Origin: a virus
Virus record (IMG/VR): IMGVR_UViG_3300045740_000037
Span: 1-33,469 of that record
Direction: 5' to 3' (one strand)
DNA length: 33,469 nt
A model generated the notes under the pieces. That model did not search any database and was not told the origin of the DNA. It saw nothing but the letters and a program-made list of their open reading frames with translations. Positions 9,134 to 26,304 of this stretch are shown piece by piece. Position 1 is the stretch's first letter; each line of letters starts with the position of its first letter. Made by a program: the position numbers and the translations under genes.

Positions 9134-9404
9134 TGGTATAGGGATTGTCGGAGGGGTTGTAAAGCAGTATGACCCCGAGGATTTTCCATGGGTTGTAGAG
9201 CAAGCGGCCCTTGCTCTACAATTTGATGCCTCTGCCAGTCCGATTTTGTATCTGGGCCAAGCGGAACCCGGGACCGCAACATCAGCTCCTCTATGGCAGA
9301 TCATGCGGATTGATACGACAAGCGGTGTCTCAATCACATATGCCAACGGGTCAGGTGACTACGTTAATATCTGGAATGACAGGGCATCCCTGCCATATAG
9401 CTGA
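9120..9404 (+). CDS. Small tail-associated protein, GTG start
   Basis: 94 residues from GTG 9120, which overlaps the coiled-coil gene by 14 bases; an ATG at 9133 is out of frame and stops at once, so GTG is the best start seen, though no clear ribosome site precedes it. The C-terminal half, ending in ANGSGDYVNIWNDRASLPYS, is a pattern I associate with short proteins next to tail-fibre genes in several environmental phages; function unknown. The stop shares a base with the fibre start. Confidence 0.7.
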   Translation: MGQRNGIGIVGGVVKQYDPEDFPWVVEQAALALQFDASASPILYLGQAEPGTATSAPLWQIMRIDTTSGVSITYANGSGDYVNIWNDRASLPYS

Positions 9405-12280
9405 TGAGTGATTTCAAGATAGTCAGCATCCTGAACCCGACTGTCGTTCTGACAGGGGGTCCCGTTATCTCCGCAGGGGCGTCGTCTCAGAGTGCGGGCA
9501 CTATCGTCTTCTCCAACTCGAACGGGGTTAGCTTCGGGTTGAGCAACGGAACCATGACTGCCTCTGCTGTTGGTGGTGGCGGCGGGGGCGGCGTTGCTAT
9601 TTCTGCAGGGACGAATTCGACCAGCACGGGCACCGTAGTCTTCAGCAACTCAAACGGCGTATCGTTTGGGATGGACACCAATGGTGTGATTACCGGAACC
9701 GTTGCGACCAATTACCAATCGCAGGGCGCATATCTGACTACTGCGATGGCGTCCAACCGGGGCACGGATTTCGTGCAGGCCACGGCGGCGTTTGCGGGGA
9801 CCAATGCTTCCGGCACTATAGCCAGTAACGGGATCAGCGTCAGCGTGGCCGCACCGGTTGCGCAGACGGCGTATGTGTTCTCCAACAGTAACGGGGTGTC
9901 TTTCGGTACTGTCGGGTCCACCGTAACCGCCACGGTGAAGACGGACTACCTCACTACGCAAACTGTTCAGACACAGGCGTCTGGCGCAATTGCCGGGACC
10001 GGCTTCACTAGCACGACCACTGCAGGAACCGCCGTTACTGCGGCTCTTGGGACAAACGGCCTGTCGATGGCGGTGCCGCAGTTCATCACCACATACGTCA
10101 ACGATCTGACCTCTGGGCGGGCAGGCACGGGCTTTACCAGCACCACCACTGCAGGGACTGCTGTTGCGGCCACTCTGAGCACCAACGGCCTTTCCATGGG
10201 TGTTCCGGCGTTCCTCACCACGGCGATGCAGTCGGGTGCCAGCACGCAGTTTGTTCAAGCGAATGCCAATTTCTTCGGCACAAATGCTTCTGGCACCATT
10301 GCCAGTAACGCCATTTCCATCAGCGTGAACGCTGGTGGTCCGGGCGGTGGCGGGGTTGCCATCTCCGCCGGAACCAATTCAACCAGCACCGGGACTGTGG
10401 TATTCAGCAATTCCAATGGCGTGTCGTTTGGTATGGACACCAACGGGGTTGTGACCGCCACAGTCAAGACGGATTATCTGACAACCCAGTCGGTGCAGAC
10501 GCAAGCCTCTGGGAACATCGCTGGTATCGGACTGACCACGACAACGACAGCTGGCACTGCGGTTGTCGGCACGAATTCGACCAACGGTTTGAGTCTTGGA
10601 ATCCCGGCGTTCATCACGACATTTGCCGCGCAGACCACCCAGACACAGGCGTCCGGGAACATTGCTGGCACCGGGTTTACCAGCACGACTACCGCAGGCA
10701 CCGCAATCGTGGGGACCAACTCTACGAATGGTTTGAGCCTCGGGGTTCCGGCCTTCATCACGACCTACGTCAACGATCTGACGTCTGGACGGGCAGGCAC
10801 GGGGTTCACCAGTACGACAACGGCTGGCACTGCTGTTGTTGCCACACTTAGCACCAATGGTCTGAGTATGGCTGTGCCGCAATACATTACGACCTACGTC
10901 AATGACCTCACTTCCGGTCGCGCCGGGACGGGGTTTACCAGCACGACTACTGCGGGCACCGCTGTTGTGGCTACATTGAGCACCAATGGTTTGTCCATGG
11001 CTGTGCCGCAATACATCACGACCTACGTCAATGATCTGACATCTGGACGAGCGGGTACCGGATTTACCAGTACGACAACGGCTGGCACCGCTGTTGTGGC
11101 CACTCTGAGTACCAATGGTTTGTCCATGGCGGTGCCGCAGTTCCTTACGACAGCGATGGCATCCAACCGGGGCACAGATTTTGTTCAGGCAAATGCCAAT
11201 TTCTTTGGCACGAACGCCTCTGGCACCATCGCCAGCAATGCGATATCTATCAGCGTGAATCCCGGCGGTGGCGGCGGGGCGGGCACGAATACGGCTTTGG
11301 CGCTGACAAATCTCACTGGAACTCTGTCGGTTGACACCAACGGCGTGTCGTTATCGCTCAATAATCTTGATGATCACTTCTCCGCGTGGAGTCTTGTCGG
11401 CAACACGGATGGTGCAAATTCGTATTCGCTGTCCACGGAGGGCCCCTTGGTGCTGGAGGGTGGCCCTAATGTAACTCTGTCAGGCAATTCAAATACTATT
11501 GTATTCAGCGCGGGCGGCGGAACGACCAATCAGACGGGCCCAAACATCGCTGCGGGCGGCGCGACCGCGACAAGCGGCACCGTGATTTTCTCGAACAGCA
11601 ACAACATCACGTTCGGGCTTAACGGTCAGACGATGACGGCTTCCTACGCCGATCCTACGGAGTCGGTATTTTTCCGTCCGAACGATTTCATTACAACGGT
11701 TGGTAACCCCATCAATGGTTCGGCGTCGGTGTTTTACTGCCCGATTGATCACAATCTGTCTGCCACCCGCTTTGATGTAATGGCGTCGGTGAGTGTAACC
11801 ACGGCGGGTAATACATCGTCTGCAGGGGTGTTATGGTCTTTGACGGCCTGCATATACACACTGAATGGCCAGACACTATCCAGCGTCTCTTCCGCAACCA
11901 CGAACAGCGAGTTTCGTTGGCAAAGCAACAGCACGGGTAGCGTGACGGGTGCATTGTTTTTCTCTGCCCCCCTGAATATCAATGCGAATGCAGACAAATA
12001 TTGGATGGCGGTTGCCATGTCCACCCGGGCTACCGGGCTCACGGGCGCTGCGACCACATCGTTGGGCAACACCATGTCGGTGTTCGGTGTTGGTTCTGCG
12101 CAAATCGGCGCGTTCTCTGCGCATGATCCGGGGCAGGCAACGGCTAACAGCTACGGCTGGTACACGGGCTTGGGGATGTATTCCGGCACGACCAACTTCA
12201 GCACCATTGGCCTCTCCAACTTGACTCAAGCAGGTACTAATGCGCAACGGGCAAATTTGGGTATAAGGATGCGGGGATGA
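9404..12280 (+). CDS. Repetitive tail-fibre-like protein
   Basis: 958 residues. Residues 1-640 are built from Ser/Thr/Gly/Asn-rich modules: FSNSNGVSFG units, FGTNASGTIASN units, and 43-residue units containing TTYVNDLTSGRAGTGF. Three of the 43-residue units are directly tandem. Four glycine runs act as hinges. From about residue 750 the sequence becomes non-repetitive and aromatic (FFRPNDF, WSLTACIY, DKYWMAVAM, SYGWYTGLGMY), probably a C-terminal receptor-binding or trimerisation head. This is the plan of a long fibrous adhesin. No chaperone peptidase or SGNH motif was seen. Synonymous differences between repeats show that the protein sequence is being maintained. Confidence 0.8.
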   Translation: MSDFKIVSILNPTVVLTGGPVISAGASSQSAGTIVFSNSNGVSFGLSNGTMTASAVGGGGGGGVAISAGTNSTSTGTVVFSNSNGVSFGMDTNGVITGTVATNYQSQGAYLTTAMASNRGTDFVQATAAFAGTNASGTIASNGISVSVAAPVAQTAYVFSNSNGVSFGTVGSTVTATVKTDYLTTQTVQTQASGAIAGTGFTSTTTAGTAVTAALGTNGLSMAVPQFITTYVNDLTSGRAGTGFTSTTTAGTAVAATLSTNGLSMGVPAFLTTAMQSGASTQFVQANANFFGTNASGTIASNAISISVNAGGPGGGGVAISAGTNSTSTGTVVFSNSNGVSFGMDTNGVVTATVKTDYLTTQSVQTQASGNIAGIGLTTTTTAGTAVVGTNSTNGLSLGIPAFITTFAAQTTQTQASGNIAGTGFTSTTTAGTAIVGTNSTNGLSLGVPAFITTYVNDLTSGRAGTGFTSTTTAGTAVVATLSTNGLSMAVPQYITTYVNDLTSGRAGTGFTSTTTAGTAVVATLSTNGLSMAVPQYITTYVNDLTSGRAGTGFTSTTTAGTAVVATLSTNGLSMAVPQFLTTAMASNRGTDFVQANANFFGTNASGTIASNAISISVNPGGGGGAGTNTALALTNLTGTLSVDTNGVSLSLNNLDDHFSAWSLVGNTDGANSYSLSTEGPLVLEGGPNVTLSGNSNTIVFSAGGGTTNQTGPNIAAGGATATSGTVIFSNSNNITFGLNGQTMTASYADPTESVFFRPNDFITTVGNPINGSASVFYCPIDHNLSATRFDVMASVSVTTAGNTSSAGVLWSLTACIYTLNGQTLSSVSSATTNSEFRWQSNSTGSVTGALFFSAPLNINANADKYWMAVAMSTRATGLTGAATTSLGNTMSVFGVGSAQIGAFSAHDPGQATANSYGWYTGLGMYSGTTNFSTIGLSNLTQAGTNAQRANLGIRMRG
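10766..11152 (+). repeat. Three tandem 129-bp repeats inside the fibre gene
   Basis: Units start at 10766, 10895 and 11024, marked by TACGTCAA and spaced exactly 129 bases (43 codons). A further isolated copy starts at 10094. Copies differ mainly at third codon positions. Confidence 0.9.
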
Positions 12281-12582
12281 TCAAGGTATTCATTCACCCG
12301 ACCAAAGAGATGTACTACGTCAATAACCCTGCCGATGGGTTTCAGATGCGGGTTCATTGGACGGCGGTCTTATCATCCGATCCTGTGACGGGTGGACCGT
12401 CCTCTTTTGCCGTGATGTCTGTCCTCGACTTTCCGTTGACCTCCTCCCCCGCTGAAGTGTTTGGTGCGGCCTACGCGGCTATTTTGGCCGAGTGTGCGGC
12501 CCGAGGATGGGAGACGCCGGAGAAGGCTGACATATATGCTTGGATGCCTACTGACTTTCAAACATTGATGGGGAACGGATGA
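12277..12582 (+). CDS. Unknown small protein
   Basis: 101 residues, joined to the fibre gene by an ATGA overlap and to the next gene by another, so translation is probably coupled across all three. Mixed composition with MIKVFIHPTKEMYYVNNPADGF at the start and an amphipathic helix (AAYAAILAECAARGW) near the end. No known motif. Given its place it could be a fibre-assembly or tail accessory protein, but this is only positional. Confidence 0.75.
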   Translation: MIKVFIHPTKEMYYVNNPADGFQMRVHWTAVLSSDPVTGGPSSFAVMSVLDFPLTSSPAEVFGAAYAAILAECAARGWETPEKADIYAWMPTDFQTLMGNG

Positions 12583-13289
12583 AACCGCAACTGATCGAGA
12601 CCGCTGGTATCCACAACGCGAATCTGGCCAAATCAACCGCCCGGATTATTCAGGGTGCGAGCTGGAAAAAGCAGCGCGTGGTCATGCTGATCCCCGCCGG
12701 AGCGCAAATTCCCACGAAGGTATACCTGTCGCACTGTGGATTGATATTCCCGCCGAATCAGGCGTCACATCGCATGGCGGCAATCGGCATGGAGGTTGGC
12801 GAAGCGTTCAGCAATTCTATCTCGGAGATCGTCAATCACCCGGAACTGGGGCAGTGGGAATACATTCTCACCATCGAGCATGACAATATCCCGCCTTCTG
12901 ACGGACTGATCAAACTGATCAAAAGGATGGAAGAGCACCCGGAGTTTGCCTGCATCGGGGGGCTATATTGGACGAAGGGGGAAGGTGGCGTCCCGCAGAT
13001 TTGGGGTGATCCCAAAGACCCCGTGCTCAACTTCCGACCCCAGCCGCCGGTACCGGGCCAACTGGTGGAGTGCTGTGGCACCGGTATGGGGTTCAATCTC
13101 TGGCGGATGAAGATGTTCCGGGACGAGCGTCTGCGCAAGCCGTGGTTTAAAACGCTGGCCGGGAAGGAGGGCGTGGGTACACAGGACCTGTATTTCTGGG
13201 GGGATGCCCGCAAATTTGGTTACCGGTGCGCGATAGACTGCGATGTCCTTGTCGGGCATTATGATATAAACACAGACATCTGCTGGTAG
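12579..13289 (+). CDS. GT-A glycosyltransferase-like protein
   Basis: 236 residues. A nucleotide-sugar-binding fold is suggested by KQRVVMLIPAG (residues 30-41), the metal-binding DxD position occupied by TIEHDNIPP (about residue 100), a CGTGMGFNLWRM segment (about 165) and TQDLYFWGDARKFGYR with GHYD at the end, the pattern of an acceptor-loop ED/QD and final His. It would transfer a sugar from a nucleotide donor; the acceptor is unknown. The DxD is EHD here instead of DxD, so activity is less certain than for the two other copies in this window (14075 and 19129). ATGA overlap with the previous gene. Confidence 0.72.
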   Translation: MKPQLIETAGIHNANLAKSTARIIQGASWKKQRVVMLIPAGAQIPTKVYLSHCGLIFPPNQASHRMAAIGMEVGEAFSNSISEIVNHPELGQWEYILTIEHDNIPPSDGLIKLIKRMEEHPEFACIGGLYWTKGEGGVPQIWGDPKDPVLNFRPQPPVPGQLVECCGTGMGFNLWRMKMFRDERLRKPWFKTLAGKEGVGTQDLYFWGDARKFGYRCAIDCDVLVGHYDINTDICW

Positions 13290-13298
13290 CGGCGGGCC

Positions 13299-13484
13299 AT
13301 GGACCGACAAACACTCGAACAGGCTTTTTGTGCGCGGCTCCCTATAGCTACATTACAGCGGTGCAGTGAGGTCGGGTTTGATGCGATGCACCTGTTTCAT
13401 CAGCGTGATGCGGCTTTTTTGGTCGCGGCACACACCAATGAAGGTATACCCTTAATCCAACGAGAGGACACGCAACGTGGCTAG
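13299..13484 (+). CDS. Small unknown protein
   Basis: 61 residues, filling the only gap between the glycosyltransferase and methyltransferase genes and overlapping the latter by eight bases, like many real junctions here. A GGCGGG site lies just before the ATG. The sequence is helical and charged with two cysteines (FCARLPIATLQRCSEVGFD). No family recognised; it could be a chance frame, but gene packing favours it. Confidence 0.55.
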   Translation: MDRQTLEQAFCARLPIATLQRCSEVGFDAMHLFHQRDAAFLVAAHTNEGIPLIQREDTQRG

Positions 13485-14025
13485 TTCCAAAAAGAAGCTG
13501 AAAGCAGTCGCCGCCCCCGAACTCATCAAGCTCGACCTTGGCTGCGGCAAAAATAAGAAAGAGGGCTTCTTCGGGGTGGACAGCTTGAAATTTGATGCTG
13601 TTGACCTCGTTTATGACTTGCGCAAGCCGTGGCCTTGGAAGGACGGCTCTGTTGATGAGGTGCATTGCAGCCATTTCATCGAGCATCTGACATGGCCGGA
13701 ACGGGTCCACTTCTTCAATGAGTTGTACCGGGTCCTGCGAGTTGAGGGTAAATGCACCCTGATCCTCCCCCACTGGGCGTCCAGCCGCTACTACGGGGAC
13801 CCCACCCACAAGGAGCCCTTCTCGGAATTCGCGTTCTACTACCTCGACAAGAATTGGCGGGACGCAAATGCCCCGCATGTTGGGTATGTCTGCGACTTCA
13901 TGGCGACTTGGGGGTATTCCATGCACCCCTCAGTCGTTTCCCGGAATCAGGAATATCAGCAACACGCCATGCAGTTTTTCAAGGAAGCGTGTCAGGACAT
14001 TATCGCCACATTGACGAAGCGGTAA
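13477..14025 (+). CDS. Class I SAM-dependent methyltransferase
   Basis: 182 residues from GTG 13477, with GAGAGGA (13461-13467) upstream. SAM-binding motif I is IKLDLGCGKNKK (residues 17-28), the acidic end of strand 2 is in FFGVDSLKFDAVDLVYDL, motif IV is EVHCSHFIEHL, and LYRVLRVEGKCTLILP is the usual helix-strand following it. This matches the Methyltransf_11/25-like fold. The substrate is unknown; lying between two sugar-transferase genes it may methylate a sugar or glycan rather than DNA, as no target-recognition domain or NPPY/PCQ motif is present. Confidence 0.85.
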   Translation: MASSKKKLKAVAAPELIKLDLGCGKNKKEGFFGVDSLKFDAVDLVYDLRKPWPWKDGSVDEVHCSHFIEHLTWPERVHFFNELYRVLRVEGKCTLILPHWASSRYYGDPTHKEPFSEFAFYYLDKNWRDANAPHVGYVCDFMATWGYSMHPSVVSRNQEYQQHAMQFFKEACQDIIATLTKR

Positions 14026-14074
14026 TGCTAATATACCGGTAATATTGATCAAAATTCCACTATACGGAATATCA

Positions 14075-14839
14075 ATGCAAAACCAACAGCAATTCGACAT
14101 AAGCGGGCGGAAGCTGTTTTTCGCGATTCCCGCTTACGACTTCAAGGTCGGCATCAAGATGATGGGTGCTTTGGTGGAGTTCGCTCGCATCGCCCCGCAG
14201 TACGGCATTCAGTTTGCCATGGGCACGATCAGCGGATGCTCGGTTGTGTCTAGAGCCCGCAACCTCCTTGTCGATGACTTCCTGCAGTCTTCCTGCGATA
14301 CCCTGATGTTCATCGACGCTGACATGACGTTCGATCCCAACGACATCATTCGGCTACTGGCCTTCTCCGGCAACCCCGCAAAGAACATCGTCGGCGGCAC
14401 CGGTGTCGCCCGCAAGAAACAAAAGACTTTTCACCTCAATCTCGACTCCGATGCTGATGGCAATCTGCTCATGGACTCCATGGGTCTTGCCCGGGCAAAA
14501 CAGATGGGCACCGGATTCATGATGGTGCAGCGTCAAGTGTTTGAGGTGCTGATCGACCGCCACCCCGAGTGGCGCTTTCATGATGTGGCATCGGGCCGCA
14601 CGATCTACTCTCTGTTCGATTTCAAATCCACTCCGGAGGGATACATCGGAGAGGACTACAACTTCTGCGACCGCGCTCGCGCCGAGGGCTTCCAAGTCTG
14701 GGTTGATCCGACGATCAAGCTGGGCCACATGGGTGTCACCGAGTTCGAGGGTGCGTTCGGGGAAGACTACCTTTACCCAATGATCAAGGCTGCGCAGGAT
14801 ACAGCTGAGACAGAATCTCTTATGGTGGCTTATGGCTAA
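14075..14839 (+). CDS. GT-A glycosyltransferase
   Basis: 254 residues from ATG 14075; a TTG 30 bases upstream is also in frame but the ATG has GGAA at a workable distance. The N-terminal strand KLFFAIPAYD, the SRARNLLVDDFL helix, and the metal-binding FIDADMTFDPNDI (DxD) are classic GT-A features. GTGFMMVQRQVFE and GEDYNFCDRARAEGFQVWVDPTIKLGHMG carry the usual catalytic ED and the terminal metal-binding His. It clearly resembles the 19129 product, sharing FIDAD..FD..DI, GTGFM and ED(Y)xFC. Acceptor unknown; fibre, capsid or host glycan are all possible. It overlaps the next gene by eight bases. Confidence 0.85.
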   Translation: MQNQQQFDISGRKLFFAIPAYDFKVGIKMMGALVEFARIAPQYGIQFAMGTISGCSVVSRARNLLVDDFLQSSCDTLMFIDADMTFDPNDIIRLLAFSGNPAKNIVGGTGVARKKQKTFHLNLDSDADGNLLMDSMGLARAKQMGTGFMMVQRQVFEVLIDRHPEWRFHDVASGRTIYSLFDFKSTPEGYIGEDYNFCDRARAEGFQVWVDPTIKLGHMGVTEFEGAFGEDYLYPMIKAAQDTAETESLMVAYG

Positions 14840-18685: not shown

Positions 18686-19132
18686 ATGGCCTTTACCGGC
18701 AACGCACTGTGCAACGTCTTCAAGACCGGGCTGCTGGATGGCAGCTACGACTTCGGCACGGGCACCACGGACGTATTCAAGATCGCCCTCTACACCAACA
18801 GCGCGACTCTGGATGCCGACACGACTGCCTACTCCGCCACTGGTGAGGTTGCCGACGCTGGGTATACCGCAGGTGGTGAGACGCTGACCATCAGCCAAGT
18901 CCCGACGATCGGCACCCAAACCGGAAGCTCGGCGGTGACCTACCTGTCGTTCTCGAATGTCTCGTGGTCGGGTGCCATCACCGCTCGCGGAGCGCTGGTT
19001 TACAAGTACAATGGGACAACCAATCCGGCAGTCTTTGTTCTGGATTTCGGCTCCGACAAGACCTCCACGACGACCTTCACCGTGGAGTTCCCGACCGCAT
19101 CCAGCACGTCAGCGATTCTGAGGCTCGCATGA
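18686..19132 (+). CDS. Beta-rich virion protein, paralogue of the 20067 product
   Basis: 148 residues. TDVFKIALYTNSATLD, TTAYSATGEV, GYTAGGETLTI and the TSAILRLA end recur with few changes in the 20067 product, so the two arose by duplication. Thr/Ser/Gly-rich, uncharged, typical of a tail or capsid surface jelly-roll. No RBS stands out, but the start lies two bases after the previous stop. Overlaps the next gene by four bases. Confidence 0.8.
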   Translation: MAFTGNALCNVFKTGLLDGSYDFGTGTTDVFKIALYTNSATLDADTTAYSATGEVADAGYTAGGETLTISQVPTIGTQTGSSAVTYLSFSNVSWSGAITARGALVYKYNGTTNPAVFVLDFGSDKTSTTTFTVEFPTASSTSAILRLA

Positions 19133-19902
19133 AACTACTTGTTGCAACCCCGATGTTTGGTGGCATGTGCGCTGGAGAATATGCGCGTTCCTCGCTTGGA
19201 ATCATTCCCACGATGAATGGCCATGGGGTTGATGTCGCTTTCGCCTACATCTACAACAATAGCCTGATTACCAGCGCTCGGGATCAGCTTGCTGCGATTT
19301 TGCTGCAGCATGACTTTACCCATATGATCTTCATTGACGCTGACATCAAATTCGATGCCTCCGATATTTGGAAGATGATGCAGGCCGATAAGGACGTGAT
19401 CGCCGGGGTGTACCCAAAAAAGGAAATCAACTGGCACATGGTTCACAAAATGGCATTGGCTGGTGCTGGCCCTGAAGACCTCTCCCGTTACACCGGTTCG
19501 TTGGTGGTGAACTTGCTGGATTACGAGAAGGAGCAGGTGGTTAGCGCCTACGATCCAGTCGAGGTATTCGGCGCTGGCACTGGTTTTATGTTGATCAAGC
19601 GCTCTGTATTCGAGGCCCTCGCGCCGCATACCGATAAGTATGTGGACGGCACCAGTGAGAAGACGATCAACAGCTTCTTCTTTCTCATGAAAGACCCGGA
19701 GACTGGCAAGCAGCTTTCGGAAGACTACGCGTTTTGCCACCTGTGCCGACAGCATGGGATTAAAATACACGTTGCTCCTTGGGTTCGGCTTGGCCACGCC
19801 GGGTCGTATTTGTTCGAGGGTTCTGCTGTTCCTATTATCAAAGAGGCTATATATGGCGCTGGTGTTTACGACGAAAGGCGAGATGGACGAGTCACTTCTT
19901 GA
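19129..19902 (+). CDS. GT-A glycosyltransferase
   Basis: 257 residues from ATG 19129 in an ATGA overlap. The DxD motif is in HMIFIDADIKFDASDI (about residues 62-77). SLITSARDQLAAILL precedes it, GAGTGFMLIKRSVFEAL and SEDYAFCHLCRQHGIKIHVAPWVRLGHAG carry the acceptor-loop, catalytic ED and metal-binding His positions. It is a relative of the 14075 product. The two beta-rich paralogues on either side (18686 and 20067) may be its substrates, though this rests only on position. Confidence 0.85.
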   Translation: MKLLVATPMFGGMCAGEYARSSLGIIPTMNGHGVDVAFAYIYNNSLITSARDQLAAILLQHDFTHMIFIDADIKFDASDIWKMMQADKDVIAGVYPKKEINWHMVHKMALAGAGPEDLSRYTGSLVVNLLDYEKEQVVSAYDPVEVFGAGTGFMLIKRSVFEALAPHTDKYVDGTSEKTINSFFFLMKDPETGKQLSEDYAFCHLCRQHGIKIHVAPWVRLGHAGSYLFEGSAVPIIKEAIYGAGVYDERRDGRVTS

Positions 19903-20066: not shown

Positions 20067-20525
20067 ATGGCAAATACTCAAGCAATGGCAACTTCGTTCA
20101 AGGGCGAACTCCTGAACGCGTATCACAACTTCAGCGCGACCAACCCGGCCCGCACCCTCAATACCGCTGACTCGTTCAAGGCTGCGTTGTATCTCGCATC
20201 GGCCACGATGAACGCCAGCTCTACCGCCTACACGGCTACCGGAGAAGTCACCGGCACGAACTACACGGCTGGCGGCGTTGCCATCACCGCATGGAATGCC
20301 CCGGCGACAGGCGGCACGACCGGCTACACCACGCCAACGGCCAGCATCACCTACACTACCGTGACGTTGACCACTGCGTTCGATGCGGTACTGATCTACA
20401 ACAACACGCAGGCCAATCGTGCGGTGAGCGTTCATACGTTTGGTTCCCAGACGGTGACCGCAGGCACCTTTACGCTGACGATGCCGACCAACAACTCCAC
20501 GAGTGCGCTGATTCGACTCGCGTAA
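20067..20525 (+). CDS. Beta-rich virion protein, paralogue of the 18686 product
   Basis: 152 residues, ATG behind AAAGGAAG. ADSFKAALYLASATMN, STAYTATGEV, NYTAGGVAITAW and the TSALIRLA end match the 18686 product in order. Uncharged, Thr/Ala-rich, likely a surface beta-sandwich. Located directly before the 1228-residue repeat gene; either a fibre-base or capsid-surface component. Confidence 0.8.
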   Translation: MANTQAMATSFKGELLNAYHNFSATNPARTLNTADSFKAALYLASATMNASSTAYTATGEVTGTNYTAGGVAITAWNAPATGGTTGYTTPTASITYTTVTLTTAFDAVLIYNNTQANRAVSVHTFGSQTVTAGTFTLTMPTNNSTSALIRLA

Positions 20526-20556: not shown

Positions 20557-23500
20557 ATGTTCAGTGACGCCCCGTTTTCAGCAACGCCATTCAGTGCCAC
20601 AGCAACGGTACTGGCGTTTGTTGTTCTATCTGGCGTATCCGCCAGCGGGGCGGCGGGCAATGTATCGCCTTCAATATCCGTAGATGAGAACGGCACCGAG
20701 GCCACCTGCGCTGTAGGTAGCCTTGGCGTTTCATCGGATACCAGTTTAAACGGCACTGCAGCAACCGCAGGTGTCGGTTCTGTATCAGCAAATCCTAATA
20801 TACCGGTCAGCGGGGTCGAAGCCACTGGTGCTGTAGACAACCTCAGCTATACCGTCGCGCTATCTGGCGTTGAGTCAACCGTCAGTGCAGGAACTCTTCC
20901 GCCGACGATCACTGTTCCCACAGCATCATCCAGTGCTGATGGTGCTTTTAGTGATTCTCCGTTCTCTTCGATACCGTTCACCGGAACGCTTGGCTCACCG
21001 GGTGTGGAGGCTTCTGGCCAAGTTGGTAATGTTGCTGCGGTTATTACCTATGAAGCCGCTCTCACTGGAGTAGCAGGTTCAGGTGCGACTGGCAATGTTA
21101 CCGTTGATTTTTCTGTAGCTATTACCGGGGTTTCATCCACCTGCGCGGTTGGCGATGTCACTGAATCTACATCATCGCAAGAAGATGGTGTGATTGCTAC
21201 GGGTCAGGTTGGCAACACCGGAGTTCAGGTTGATATTGCGCTTACTGGCATCTCAGCCACTGGTGCGGTTGGTGATGTTGGTTATGCCGCACCCATATCA
21301 GGAGTCGCGTCAACCAGCGCCGTCGGGAGCGTTGGAACTAGCCGTGATGTTAGTTTAAACGGCGTATCGGCCACTGGCGATGTCGGAATTTTATCACCCG
21401 CATCTGAGTTTTCGCTTACCACGGCCAGCGCGTCTGGTGTTGCTGGTGATCTTGGGGTCACGTTATCTGTTGATACTGCGGCTATTGGTTCGTTGGGTGC
21501 GTTTAGTGACTCGCCGTTCTCAGATATACCATTCACCGGAACAATCAGTTATCCCGGTGTTGCCGCCATCGGTGATGTGGGTAGTGTTGGAACTCAGGTT
21601 TTATATGAAGCCGCCCTCACTGGTGTTGAAAGCACTGGTACTGCCGGAACCGTAGCGCCGAACACTGATGTCGCCATCTCCGGGGTTGAGGCTACCGGCG
21701 CAACAGGTAGCGTCACTGGGAACATCGATGTAGCCATATCCGGCGTTTCATCTTCATGTGCTGTAGGCAGCGCTGGGGTTTCTGTATCAATAGCCCAGAC
21801 CGGTGTTGAGGCTACCGGTGCTGTTGGTGATGTTGTCTACTCAGTCCCGATATCCGGTGTTGCTGGCACCGGCGCTGTAGGTTCCGTATCCCCATCTGTA
21901 TCTGTAGCGGAGACCGGGAATGAGACCACAGGCGCAGTTGGAGATGTCACTCTGTCATCTTCTGTTGCGCTGACCGGTGTAGAAGCCGCAGATGATGTCG
22001 GCACCCTTGGGGTTGATCTTTCCGTCCCGATCAGCACCGGCAATGCCCTTGGCGCGTTCAGCGATTCGCCGTTCTCTGACATCCCGTTTGGCGGGACTGT
22101 CGGGTATCCGGGCGTATACGCACTTGGCGTTGTCGGTGACGTAGAAGTAACGAACGTCTTAACTGGGGTAGAGGCCACCGGTGATGTAGGCAGTTTAAAC
22201 GTATCAGTAACGGTAGCGCTTTCCGGCGTTCAATCTGCCTGCGCGGTGGGCGATGTCACCGAATCCACCTCGTCTCAAGAAGATGGGGTTATCGCCACCG
22301 GTCAGGTCGGCAACGTAGGCATCCAATCGGCAGTAGGCATCACCGGGGTCTTTAGCACTGCTGCTGTCGGCAGTGTATCCGTAGACATTAGCGTCGAGGT
22401 CAATAGCGGCTACGCAGGCGCTGGTGCCTTCAGCGACTCGCCCTTTGCCTTTGCGCCATTCGGCGGTTACGCCGGGATGCCGCTTGTTCAGGCCACCGGT
22501 GAAGCAGGGGAAGTGGTTGGCGAGAAGACGTCTTTGGTATCCGGCGTTGAATCGACCGGCGCTGCCGGAACTGTAACGCCAAGCACTACAGTTGCAATTA
22601 CCGGGGTTGAAGCCACCGGTGCGACAGGAAATGTCGTAGCGAACCTCGATGTATCCATCTCTGGGGTTTCGGCAACAGGAGATGTTGGCGTCACCGGAGT
22701 TCAGGTTGATATCGCGCTCACCAGCGTCTCGGCAACGGGTGCGGTTGGCGATGTGGGCTATGCGGTACCGATATCAGGGGTTGAAGCGACCGGCGCGGCC
22801 GGGAATGTCGCTGCAGCATTGGCAGTCGATGAGAACGGCGTTTCGGCTACCGGTGAAACCGGAACCGTATCCACATCCAGTGAAGTAACGCTGAGTGGTG
22901 CGAGCGGCTCCGGCGCGGTTGGCTCGCTTGGTGTTGATCTTACAGTTCCGATCAGCACCGGCAATGCGCTGGGCGCGTTCAGTGATTCTCCGTTCTCGGA
23001 TATCCCATTCGGCGGCACGGTTGGCTACCCCGGCGTATACGCACTTGGCGTTGTCGGTGACGTGGAATTTGCCACGCTGCTTACCGGGGTTGAGTCTACC
23101 GGTAGCGTTGGCAATGTAACGCCATCCATTGAGATCAGCCTCTCCGGCGTTGAATCCACCTGTGCGGTCGGTGATGTAACGGAGTCCACCTCATCTCAGG
23201 AAGACGGGGTTATTGCGACCGGTCAGGTTGGCAATGTCAGCCCAGAGTCCACGGTAGATATAACCGGGGTATCTCTCTCAACTAGTGTCGGCTCGGTTAC
23301 GCCTTCCCTGTCGGTGCCGATTGCGCCATACATCTCCAGCAGCGGTTTTGGCGGGGAGGTGTTCTCTGAGAATCCGTTCAGCGGGGACTCTTACTACTCC
23401 GGAGCGGTTGCTCGTGGCGAGGTTGGCGATGTCACCTACGCATCCCCTGTAGACATATCTGGGGTTGAGGCCACCGGTGAGGTTGGCACCCTGTCCGTCG

Positions 23501-24243
23501 AAGAGCGGCAGATCGCACTATCAGGGGTATTTGCTACCGGCGAGGTCGGCCAGCTTGATATCGGCGCAGAGATACCGGGCGTAACCGCAACCGGTGAAGT
23601 AGGAACCACTGGGGTTGATGTCACCGTAGACCTGACCGGTGTTGCAGCAACCGGCGAGGTCGGCACAGTCGAGGGTGGGCTCCTGCTGTCAGGTGTTCAG
23701 CTTGTGGGCTCTGTCGGGGACTTCGGGGTTGCCCTGACCATCGCCTTGACGGGCACCTCTGCCACCGGATTTGCCGGGAACGTCGAGTCCAGCTACGGCC
23801 CAGCCCTGACCGGGGTGTTTGCTGCCGGTGCGGTCGGGTTCGTATACGCCCCGCCACCGTGGGAATTGATAAGTGACACCCAGACACCAAACTGGCAAAA
23901 TGTAGGCACCCCGGGAGGCACTGGTTGGACGCCGATCGGAACTACGCAGTCCGCTGGCTGGAGTCTGGTTATATCGGGCCCGGGCGGAAGTTGGACTGCG
24001 GTGAGTACCACGCAGACGGCAGGCTGGAGTATGATTGATCCCAACGGATCAACGACTTGGAGCCCAGTCGGGACTGCGCAAAGCGCTGGGTGGTCGAATA
24101 TCAACAGCAGTGAAGGTGCCGTGTGGACTGCAATACCAAATACGCAATCAGCAGCATGGTCTGCGGCAGTAACACCGAGTGCTGATGAGTGGGAAGAGAT
24201 CGACACCCAGCAACAGCCCGAATGGGAAGAAATTGAGACGTAA
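20557..24243 (+). CDS. 1228-residue repeat protein, probable tail fibre
   Basis: Built of 18-22-residue units around the core (I/L)(S/T)GVxATGxVGxV, about fifty in all, nearly uncharged. A second, rarer module GAFSDSPFSDIPF recurs at residues 1, 128, 313, 498, 622 and 805, with a degenerate copy near 930. A third, TCAVGDVTESTSSQEDGVIA, occurs three times. The last 130 residues change to tryptophan-rich units, W..I.TTQSAGW, ending in an acidic WEEIDTQQQPEWEEIET. The ATG repeats are a type I have seen in unnamed phage proteins, and W..I.DTQ.P.W units at the ends of their tail proteins. A long beta-structured fibre is the likeliest reading; no enzymatic motif is visible. Confidence 0.78.
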   Translation: MFSDAPFSATPFSATATVLAFVVLSGVSASGAAGNVSPSISVDENGTEATCAVGSLGVSSDTSLNGTAATAGVGSVSANPNIPVSGVEATGAVDNLSYTVALSGVESTVSAGTLPPTITVPTASSSADGAFSDSPFSSIPFTGTLGSPGVEASGQVGNVAAVITYEAALTGVAGSGATGNVTVDFSVAITGVSSTCAVGDVTESTSSQEDGVIATGQVGNTGVQVDIALTGISATGAVGDVGYAAPISGVASTSAVGSVGTSRDVSLNGVSATGDVGILSPASEFSLTTASASGVAGDLGVTLSVDTAAIGSLGAFSDSPFSDIPFTGTISYPGVAAIGDVGSVGTQVLYEAALTGVESTGTAGTVAPNTDVAISGVEATGATGSVTGNIDVAISGVSSSCAVGSAGVSVSIAQTGVEATGAVGDVVYSVPISGVAGTGAVGSVSPSVSVAETGNETTGAVGDVTLSSSVALTGVEAADDVGTLGVDLSVPISTGNALGAFSDSPFSDIPFGGTVGYPGVYALGVVGDVEVTNVLTGVEATGDVGSLNVSVTVALSGVQSACAVGDVTESTSSQEDGVIATGQVGNVGIQSAVGITGVFSTAAVGSVSVDISVEVNSGYAGAGAFSDSPFAFAPFGGYAGMPLVQATGEAGEVVGEKTSLVSGVESTGAAGTVTPSTTVAITGVEATGATGNVVANLDVSISGVSATGDVGVTGVQVDIALTSVSATGAVGDVGYAVPISGVEATGAAGNVAAALAVDENGVSATGETGTVSTSSEVTLSGASGSGAVGSLGVDLTVPISTGNALGAFSDSPFSDIPFGGTVGYPGVYALGVVGDVEFATLLTGVESTGSVGNVTPSIEISLSGVESTCAVGDVTESTSSQEDGVIATGQVGNVSPESTVDITGVSLSTSVGSVTPSLSVPIAPYISSSGFGGEVFSENPFSGDSYYSGAVARGEVGDVTYASPVDISGVEATGEVGTLSVEERQIALSGVFATGEVGQLDIGAEIPGVTATGEVGTTGVDVTVDLTGVAATGEVGTVEGGLLLSGVQLVGSVGDFGVALTIALTGTSATGFAGNVESSYGPALTGVFAAGAVGFVYAPPPWELISDTQTPNWQNVGTPGGTGWTPIGTTQSAGWSLVISGPGGSWTAVSTTQTAGWSMIDPNGSTTWSPVGTAQSAGWSNINSSEGAVWTAIPNTQSAAWSAAVTPSADEWEEIDTQQQPEWEEIET

Positions 24244-24252
24244 GGAGATAGC

Positions 24253-25110
24253 ATGGCGCTAGTTGTAAAAGATCGGGTCAAAGAGACTACAACAACCACC
24301 GGAACCGGTACAGTCACTCTTGCTGGCGCGGCTACCGGATATCAATCGTTTTCGGCCATCGGGAACGCCAACACCACTTACTACTGCATCGCCGGTCAGG
24401 GCACGAGTGAATGGGAGGTTGGCGTAGGAACTTATACATCATCCGGCACTACGCTGTCCCGCGATACTGTTCTTGCCTCCTCAAACTCTGGCTCTGCGGT
24501 CAATTTTTCTGCCGGAACCAAAGATGTCTTCGTCACCTTCCCTGCAAGCATAGCTTTGCAGCAGGGGACATATGCGCTTTATACGTCTGGTACTTCAACA
24601 TGGACTGCTCCCGCTGGCGTGACCGCAGTTAAAGTGGTTTGTATTGGCGGTGGCGGTGGCGGCTCATCGTGGTTTTCTACTCCCGGCGGAAACGGCGGTT
24701 TAGCGATAGGTTCTTACACAGTTACGCCCGGCACTGGTTACACGGTTACCGTGGGGGCTGGCGGCGCTGGCTCTAATGGCGGTAATGGCTCTAGTGGAGG
24801 AACTTCGTCATTTGGTTCTTTAATAAGCGCAACTGGCGGCGGCGGCGCAACAGGTGTTGATGGAACTCCCGGAGCCGGTTCAAGCGGGATATTTTTTAAT
24901 GGTACCAATCAATCGGCTTTAGACGGTATTGTTGCTCCTGCGTATATGCTTCCGGTTGCTTCAACTAGCGGCAAAAACACAGGCACAACTTCCGCAGTTA
25001 CTTGGGCCGTTGGTCAAACCTATGGGGGGCCGGGCGCGTTTGGTAATTACACCGGCCTTGTTGGTTATGGTGCCGTTGGCGGCGCAGTTCTCATTGAATA
25101 TGTGGGGTAA
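24253..25110 (+). CDS. Tail fibre protein with glycine-rich C-terminal region
   Basis: 285 residues, ATG behind AAGGAG (24242-24247). The first 105 residues (LVVKDRVKETTTTTGTGTVTL...TSEWEVGVGTYTSSGTTLSRDTVLASSN...KDVFVTFPA) are a common phage tail-fibre N-terminal module. STWTAPAGVTAVKVVCIGGGGGG then opens a glycine-rich domain of about 100 residues (PGTGYTVTVGAGGAG), like the glycine-rich receptor-recognising tips found in several phages. The end VGYGAVGGAVLIEYVG closes the domain. Third base use is more AT-rich than in the capsid gene, hinting at recent exchange. Confidence 0.8.
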   Translation: MALVVKDRVKETTTTTGTGTVTLAGAATGYQSFSAIGNANTTYYCIAGQGTSEWEVGVGTYTSSGTTLSRDTVLASSNSGSAVNFSAGTKDVFVTFPASIALQQGTYALYTSGTSTWTAPAGVTAVKVVCIGGGGGGSSWFSTPGGNGGLAIGSYTVTPGTGYTVTVGAGGAGSNGGNGSSGGTSSFGSLISATGGGGATGVDGTPGAGSSGIFFNGTNQSALDGIVAPAYMLPVASTSGKNTGTTSAVTWAVGQTYGGPGAFGNYTGLVGYGAVGGAVLIEYVG

Positions 25111-25386: not shown

Positions 25387-26304
25387 ATGCCCGGATCGAC
25401 CTACTCTACCAACCTCAAGATCGAGCTTATCCCGCTCGGTGACCAGTCTGGCACTTGGGGCACCACAAACAACACGAACCTTGGCACCGCGCTTGAGCAG
25501 GCGATCGTGGGCTATGGCAACCCGAACTTCACATCCGATGCTGATCTCACGATCACCCTGACAGATTCCAATGCCTCGCAGACGGCCCGGAACTTCGCGC
25601 TCAATGTCACCTCCAGCGTATCGCTCACGACCACACGGAACCTGATTGTCCCGACGATCCAGAAGACTTACATGGTGCGCAATAACACCAGCGGGTCACA
25701 GAGTATCGTTGTCAAGACCAGCGCAGGGACGGGGATCACGGTGCCAAATGGATACCGCGTTCATCTTTACGTGGATGGAACTAATGTTGTCGCGTATGAC
25801 ATCCCCGGTTCTTCTGTTGGCGTAACGCAGGCATTCGGTACCAGCGACACCACCCTTGCGACGACCGCATTTGTGCAGGCAGCGCTCGCTGCGATGTATC
25901 CCGTAGGCTCGATCTACACAAACGCAACAAGCTCGACTAATCCCGCGACGCTGCTTGGCTTCGGCACATGGACTGCGTTTGGCGCTGGTCGCGTCATGGT
26001 TGGTTTGGACGCCGGGAACGCTGCGTTTGATACGGCGGAGGAAACGGGTGGTTCTGCTGACGCGGTTGTGGTGAGCCATACCCACACCGCAACGGTGACT
26101 GATCCGGGGCACAACCATACTGTATCCTGCTTTTCTTCCGGCGGCTCTTACGCCGCGTTTTCAAACATTGCCGGTCAGAATACCGTAACTACTTCGACAT
26201 CCACAACCGGTATCACGGTTGCAAACAGCACCGAAGGCGTCTCTGGAACGAATGCCAATCTGCAACCGTACATCGTCGTTTATATGTGGAAACGTACCGC
26301 CTAA
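25387..26304 (+). CDS. Tail-collar-domain fibre protein
   Basis: 305 residues, ATG behind CGGGAG. Residues 1-160 are a beta-rich shaft (LKIELIPLGDQSGTWGTTNN). From about 165 the sequence shows the phage tail collar/gp10 C-terminal type domain: YPVGSIYTNATSSTNPATLLGFGTW, FGAGRVMVGLDAG, ETGGS, the HTHTATVTDPGHNHT histidine motif that commonly binds iron in such fibre tips, and the terminal NLQPYIVVYMWKRTA. It is probably a receptor-binding tail fibre or short tail spike. Confidence 0.88.
   Translation: MPGSTYSTNLKIELIPLGDQSGTWGTTNNTNLGTALEQAIVGYGNPNFTSDADLTITLTDSNASQTARNFALNVTSSVSLTTTRNLIVPTIQKTYMVRNNTSGSQSIVVKTSAGTGITVPNGYRVHLYVDGTNVVAYDIPGSSVGVTQAFGTSDTTLATTAFVQAALAAMYPVGSIYTNATSSTNPATLLGFGTWTAFGAGRVMVGLDAGNAAFDTAEETGGSADAVVVSHTHTATVTDPGHNHTVSCFSSGGSYAAFSNIAGQNTVTTSTSTTGITVANSTEGVSGTNANLQPYIVVYMWKRTA

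Follow-up and report, generated by a model that had tools for sequence, protein, structure and literature searches.

Triple beta-spiral shafts, such as those of the adenovirus fibre and reovirus sigma1, consist of short repeats, each of about 15-20 residues and containing glycine, and their length is tunable. The protein that we describe here, encoded in a 33,469-nucleotide stretch of viral DNA (IMG/VR record IMGVR_UViG_3300045740_000037; the whole stretch is referred to below as the window), resembles these fibres in its short glycine-bearing repeats and tunable length, with no sequence match in the PDB. Variable fibre genes are also known in marine phages (PMC3909814). Like the tail fibres of T7-type and marine phages (PMC3909814), the window protein has a repeat-built middle, diverges fast and adjoins tail genes, but neither the N-terminal domain of T7 fibres nor any known tip domain was found in it.

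The family to which the protein belongs follows a common plan, consisting of an aromatic header, a number (n) of repeat units, a unit with the motif QEDG, and tryptophan repeats. Among described phages, a hypothetical protein of the freshwater phage DSL-LC04 (WJZ48131.1) shares with this family its ATGxVG-like units (22 aa), a W-rich end, four aromatic-glycine (WG) headers, a phrog_644 gene upstream and a fibre gene downstream; it differs in having WG instead of FS/PF headers, a length of 376 aa and no QEDG motif. A tblastn search with the relative L098 matched it (E 4e-14), and one with the window protein as query did not. In Pelagibacter phage HTVC027P, gp68 directly follows a phrog_644 relative, its repeats are interspersed with three WG headers, and it is linked to the family by place and plan only, its search having matched only itself with no significant alignment. 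Gp68 of Pelagibacter phage HTVC023P, also built of repeats, is short and ends in a W-rich part, and its match is weak (E 1e-3); in both gp68 proteins the ATGxVG register is less clean than in the window protein. In the searched text of the papers on HTVC023P, HTVC027P and CRP-901 the homologous genes are not discussed, and a literature search found nothing on a family combining header, ATGxVG, QEDG and W-repeats.

Organization of the repeat gene and its neighbourhood

The gene order in the window is terL (partial), portal, major head, two SU10-type adaptors, phrog_644, the repeat gene, two fibre-type genes, an M15 peptidase and a nozzle-like gene. The features around and within the repeat gene are as follows.

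20067..20525, + strand: phrog_644 protein (function unknown), 31 nt upstream of the repeat gene; constant neighbour in relatives
20557..24243, + strand: repeat protein ORF, 1228 aa; 4 K/R, 115 D/E, computed pI ~4.05
20557..20940, + strand: block 1, N-terminal header MFSDAPFSATPFS and 5 units; kept in relatives, 83% to L006
20941..21495, + strand: block 2, header and 8 units, 185 aa; first QEDG motif at 21166
21496..22050, + strand: block 3, header and 8 units, 185 aa
22051..22422, + strand: block 4, header and 5 units, 124 aa; second QEDG motif at 22264; sister of block 6
22423..22971, + strand: block 5, header GAFSDSPFAFAPFGG and 8 units, 183 aa; nearest to blocks of L005, L006 and L008
22972..23355, + strand: block 6, header and 5 units, 128 aa; third QEDG motif at 23185
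23356..23850, + strand: block 7, degenerate header EVFSENPFS and last units
23851..24240, + strand: C-terminal tryptophan repeats (W..I..T.Q..gW), 130 aa; relatives end with the same element
24253..25110, + strand: fibre-type protein downstream of the repeat gene (phrog_863 tail fiber assembly; Pfam Gly_rich_2)
25387..26304, + strand: fibre-type protein with a Gp10_C domain, downstream of the repeat gene

A preliminary description of this locus had proposed an array of ATGxVG units interrupted by header modules, and this is indeed what we observe: a position-specific scan places 47 units of ~20 aa within one ORF, which also carries seven 'xFSDSPFSxxPF' headers. The step from unit to unit is mostly 20 aa, sometimes 18, 21 or 22, and becomes 45-46 aa where a header intervenes. 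The headers begin at aa 1 (MFSDAPFS), 129, 314, 499, 623, 806 and 934 (nt 20557, 20941, 21496, 22051, 22423, 22972 and 23356); the first six are where they had been placed, and the seventh, given as 'about 23347', had been set 9 nt too low. Blocks 1 to 6 are thus 128, 185, 185, 124, 183 and 128 aa long (384, 555, 555, 372, 549 and 384 nt), so that the two preferred spacings noted earlier, near 555 and 375 nt, hold and simply represent blocks of 8 versus 5 units, with 384 nt as the true last spacing. The three copies of STSSQEDGVIATGQVGN, which bears the QEDG motif, are likewise present (aa 204, 570 and 877), but the motif belongs to one special unit of the array and is not a separate level of nesting. 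Third-position G+C of the repeat gene (0.52) is below that of most other genes (0.60-0.82); along the gene it rises from 0.38 (block 2) to 0.65 (block 7).

Searches against Pfam, PHROGs, NCBIfam and PDB sequences gave no match carrying a function for the repeat protein, and no known tail fibre or receptor-binding domain was found in it with Pfam, PHROGs or NCBIfam. A weak match to phrog_36982 (function unknown) was obtained with L011, L080 and L018 only. The window protein had no tblastn match among phage records, to which low-complexity filtering may contribute. A scan of genome contigs found no relatives, and therefore gives no host or prophage link.

Elsewhere in the window, a second long repeat protein (9404-12280, 958 aa) includes a 129-nt tandem repeat in three copies at 10756-11139 (82% matches) and has no clear family. 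Glycosyltransferase-like and methyltransferase genes lie within the structural module (12579-14839, 19126-19902), and the glycosyltransferase-like gene at 19126-19902 is flanked by two phrog_644 paralogues (18686-19132 and 20067-20525). This flanked gene occurs in L005, L007, L010 and L011 and is not found at that place in L006, L008 and L009. As pure speculation, the products of these genes might modify Ser/Thr-rich virion proteins.

Similarity between blocks and the history of duplication

To separate likeness between blocks from likeness between units, we compared the protein with 60 sequences made by shuffling its units, counting 40-residue self-match windows at >=55% identity. The observed number was 585, against 421 +/- 44 (maximum 517) in the shuffles, and the longest similar run was 123 residues against a maximum of 79, indicating block-level similarity beyond the 20-residue unit. 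The strongest self-offsets are 307, 185 and 492 aa, the first being the strongest of all and also pairing blocks 3+4 with blocks 5+6. The blocks at 22051 and 22972 (blocks 4 and 6), said earlier to agree over more than 100 residues, do so with 88 of 123 aligned residues identical. In a tree of header-proximal 75-residue pieces from the window and its relatives, these two are sisters (support 99/99), five blocks of L010 form their own clade (99/99) and the N-terminal headers form one group (100/96), while the other block types mix different phages, in differing numbers and order.

A stretch of 41 residues, starting 27 nt before the headers at 22051 and 22972, is identical in the two copies as protein, and the 16 bases (of 123) that differ in its DNA are all third codon positions. 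The two most similar blocks differ in 31% of their DNA over the full length and in 21% of the best-matching 202 nt. No exact direct repeat in the gene is longer than 32 nt, far under usual read length, which together with the exclusively synonymous differences makes mis-assembly unlikely, as collapse or false duplication would not yield identical protein with third-position changes. Hence, that the block structure is an artefact of assembly, as one may fear for any metagenome contig, seems to us extremely improbable: the exact repeats are too short, the copies are at most ~79% identical in DNA, and multi-block genes occur in seven separate contigs.

The proportion of synonymous differences (pS) between blocks of the window is 0.62-0.72, with dN/dS of 0.17-0.28, and pS of the neighbouring genes between the window and its relatives is 0.43-0.78. 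Because the blocks are about as far apart synonymously as neighbouring genes are between phages, the copies are not recent, although pS is high throughout and makes the dating coarse. The likeness between blocks is preserved by selective constraint, that is, by purifying selection within blocks, and gene conversion between blocks may have occurred. The earlier suggestion of growth by duplication of multi-unit blocks is therefore borne out in part, for blocks 4 and 6 and for the likeness of 3+4 to 5+6, but the synonymous divergence shows that these duplicates are old, and different phages have most block types in common. Block duplication did take place, partly within the lineage of the window, though not lately, and the history that emerges is one of old duplication, with blocks retained and reshuffled, plus smaller changes by a few units.

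Distribution and length variation of the family

Relatives of the repeat protein are found in more than 60 contigs, representing dozens of phages from environmental samples; members of the family, the window protein included, range from ~210 to 1228 aa. The window protein shows all four features of the family, namely an N-terminal header, an array of ~20-aa units, a QEDG unit and a phrog_644 gene close upstream. In 45 of 67 relatives the phrog_644 gene lies 3-44 nt upstream of the repeat gene; the others have it at most ~0.8 kb upstream, except for two whose contigs begin too late. The N-terminal headers of relatives combine aromatic residues with small ones (FSDAPFSAAPFS, AWGAGAWGDNSWGG or AYGSGYYGKGVYG). 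In the unit QEDGVIATGxVG, the QEDG, ATG and VG positions are invariant in 11 aligned relatives; QEDG has diverged to QDG or QDDG in some others and is absent in the most distant, and short members usually have one copy where the window protein has three. The preliminary description had called for a comparison of repeat number among related phages, and unit and header counts do differ between them: six IMG/VR relatives (L005-L010) have multi-header genes, and many others have a single header and ~7 to 28 units. Across the arrays, spacings of 18, 20 or 22 aa make up 371 of 403 cases, the relatives not being independent, a preference that fits beta strands keeping their in/out alternation.

Close pairs illustrate how length changes. 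The contigs L012 and L015 are ~95-98% identical apart from a length difference of 180 nt, which equals exactly three units, and both the long form (L012-L014) and the short form (L015-L016) were recovered from several samples each; some assembly error may affect L012, given its exact repeats of up to 103 nt. Between L076 (3289 onward) and L077, the upstream DNA has 99.7% identity over 1951 nt, and identity then falls to ~87% in the region of the repeat gene, with different lengths and a sharp, recombination-like edge. The protein of Octadecabacter Antarctic DB virus 2 annotated as 'ribonuclease E' (L045, 4642-6168) has ~20-residue repeats and the same W-rich end, and its label looks wrong. Taken together, these sequences form a coherent, uncharacterised family of repeat-built phage proteins and not a new kind of system, and the reuse of the N-terminal header inside the chain is its least ordinary point.

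Proposed role of the repeat protein

In comparisons with four relatives (L052, L050, L051 and L049), the repeat protein is 48-70% identical, against 84-89% for the second adaptor, 81-89% for the phrog_644 protein, 77-89% for the nozzle where present, and 52-73% for the downstream fibre genes. The repeat gene thus diverges as fast as the neighbouring fibres and much faster than the adaptor, phrog_644 and nozzle genes. Because of this fibre-like divergence, together with the variation in length, the acidity, the location among tail and fibre genes and the 18/20/22 spacings, we consider it rather probable that the protein is an elongated, strongly acidic, surface-exposed fibre or appendage, of variable length, on the virion of a phage with a short tail. 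That it occurs in the virion and is exposed there, its beta fold and oligomeric state, and its contact with a receptor are features that we infer.

The same observations bear on other possible roles. In favour of an appendage that decorates the head or collar, similar to a head fibre, and binds surfaces non-specifically are the strong acidity, the lack of a known receptor-binding tip (the end-repeats match no known receptor-binding domain) and the neighbouring phrog_644 genes, whose products have no known place in the particle. We nevertheless think a head or collar position unlikely, because the nearest genes are adaptors on one side and fibre-type and nozzle genes on the other, and the gene has diverged in the manner of the adjacent fibres. 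AlphaFold2 monomer models of residues 806-1228 and of the short relative L018 have unusably low confidence (mean pLDDT 35 and 43), and two thirds of the protein is composed of G, S, T, A and V, as might be expected of a flexible, acidic, low-complexity surface coat in which repeats merely keep composition; but the strict register of G and V, the strong preference in spacing, the 41 residues kept identical despite third-codon changes and the invariant QEDG motif all point to a fold, and a coat of irregular structure is in our opinion less probable still. Quantised length and a location among fibre genes would also suit a ruler, scaffold or fibre chaperone that is absent from the mature particle, yet a ruler would not be expected to diverge so fast or to be so loose in length, and there is no likeness to known chaperones, making such an assembly role very improbable.

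If the protein is indeed a fibre, the ~20-aa units would form a beta-rich shaft, punctuated every 5 or 8 units by headers that copy the protein's own N-terminal motif, and the C-terminal tryptophan repeats would make the opposite end. Recombination between repeats would alter the number of units and blocks, so that fibre length and header count vary between phages, as would be expected of a part that contacts the host or determines reach. More tentatively, and with a good deal of doubt, we suggest that this may be a new type of modular fibre, in which the N-terminal module is reused in the shaft, and attachment or branching points and length evolve through duplication and exchange of blocks.

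Implications

This is a widespread family in environmental virus contigs, with a fixed place in the structural module and no curated name. With 4 lysine or arginine residues in 1228, the window protein would be nearly invisible to trypsin-based virion proteomics, which may help explain why it has been overlooked. The family also provides a natural length series, from ~8 to 47 units and from 1 to 7 headers, with which one could test whether repeat number tunes host adsorption.
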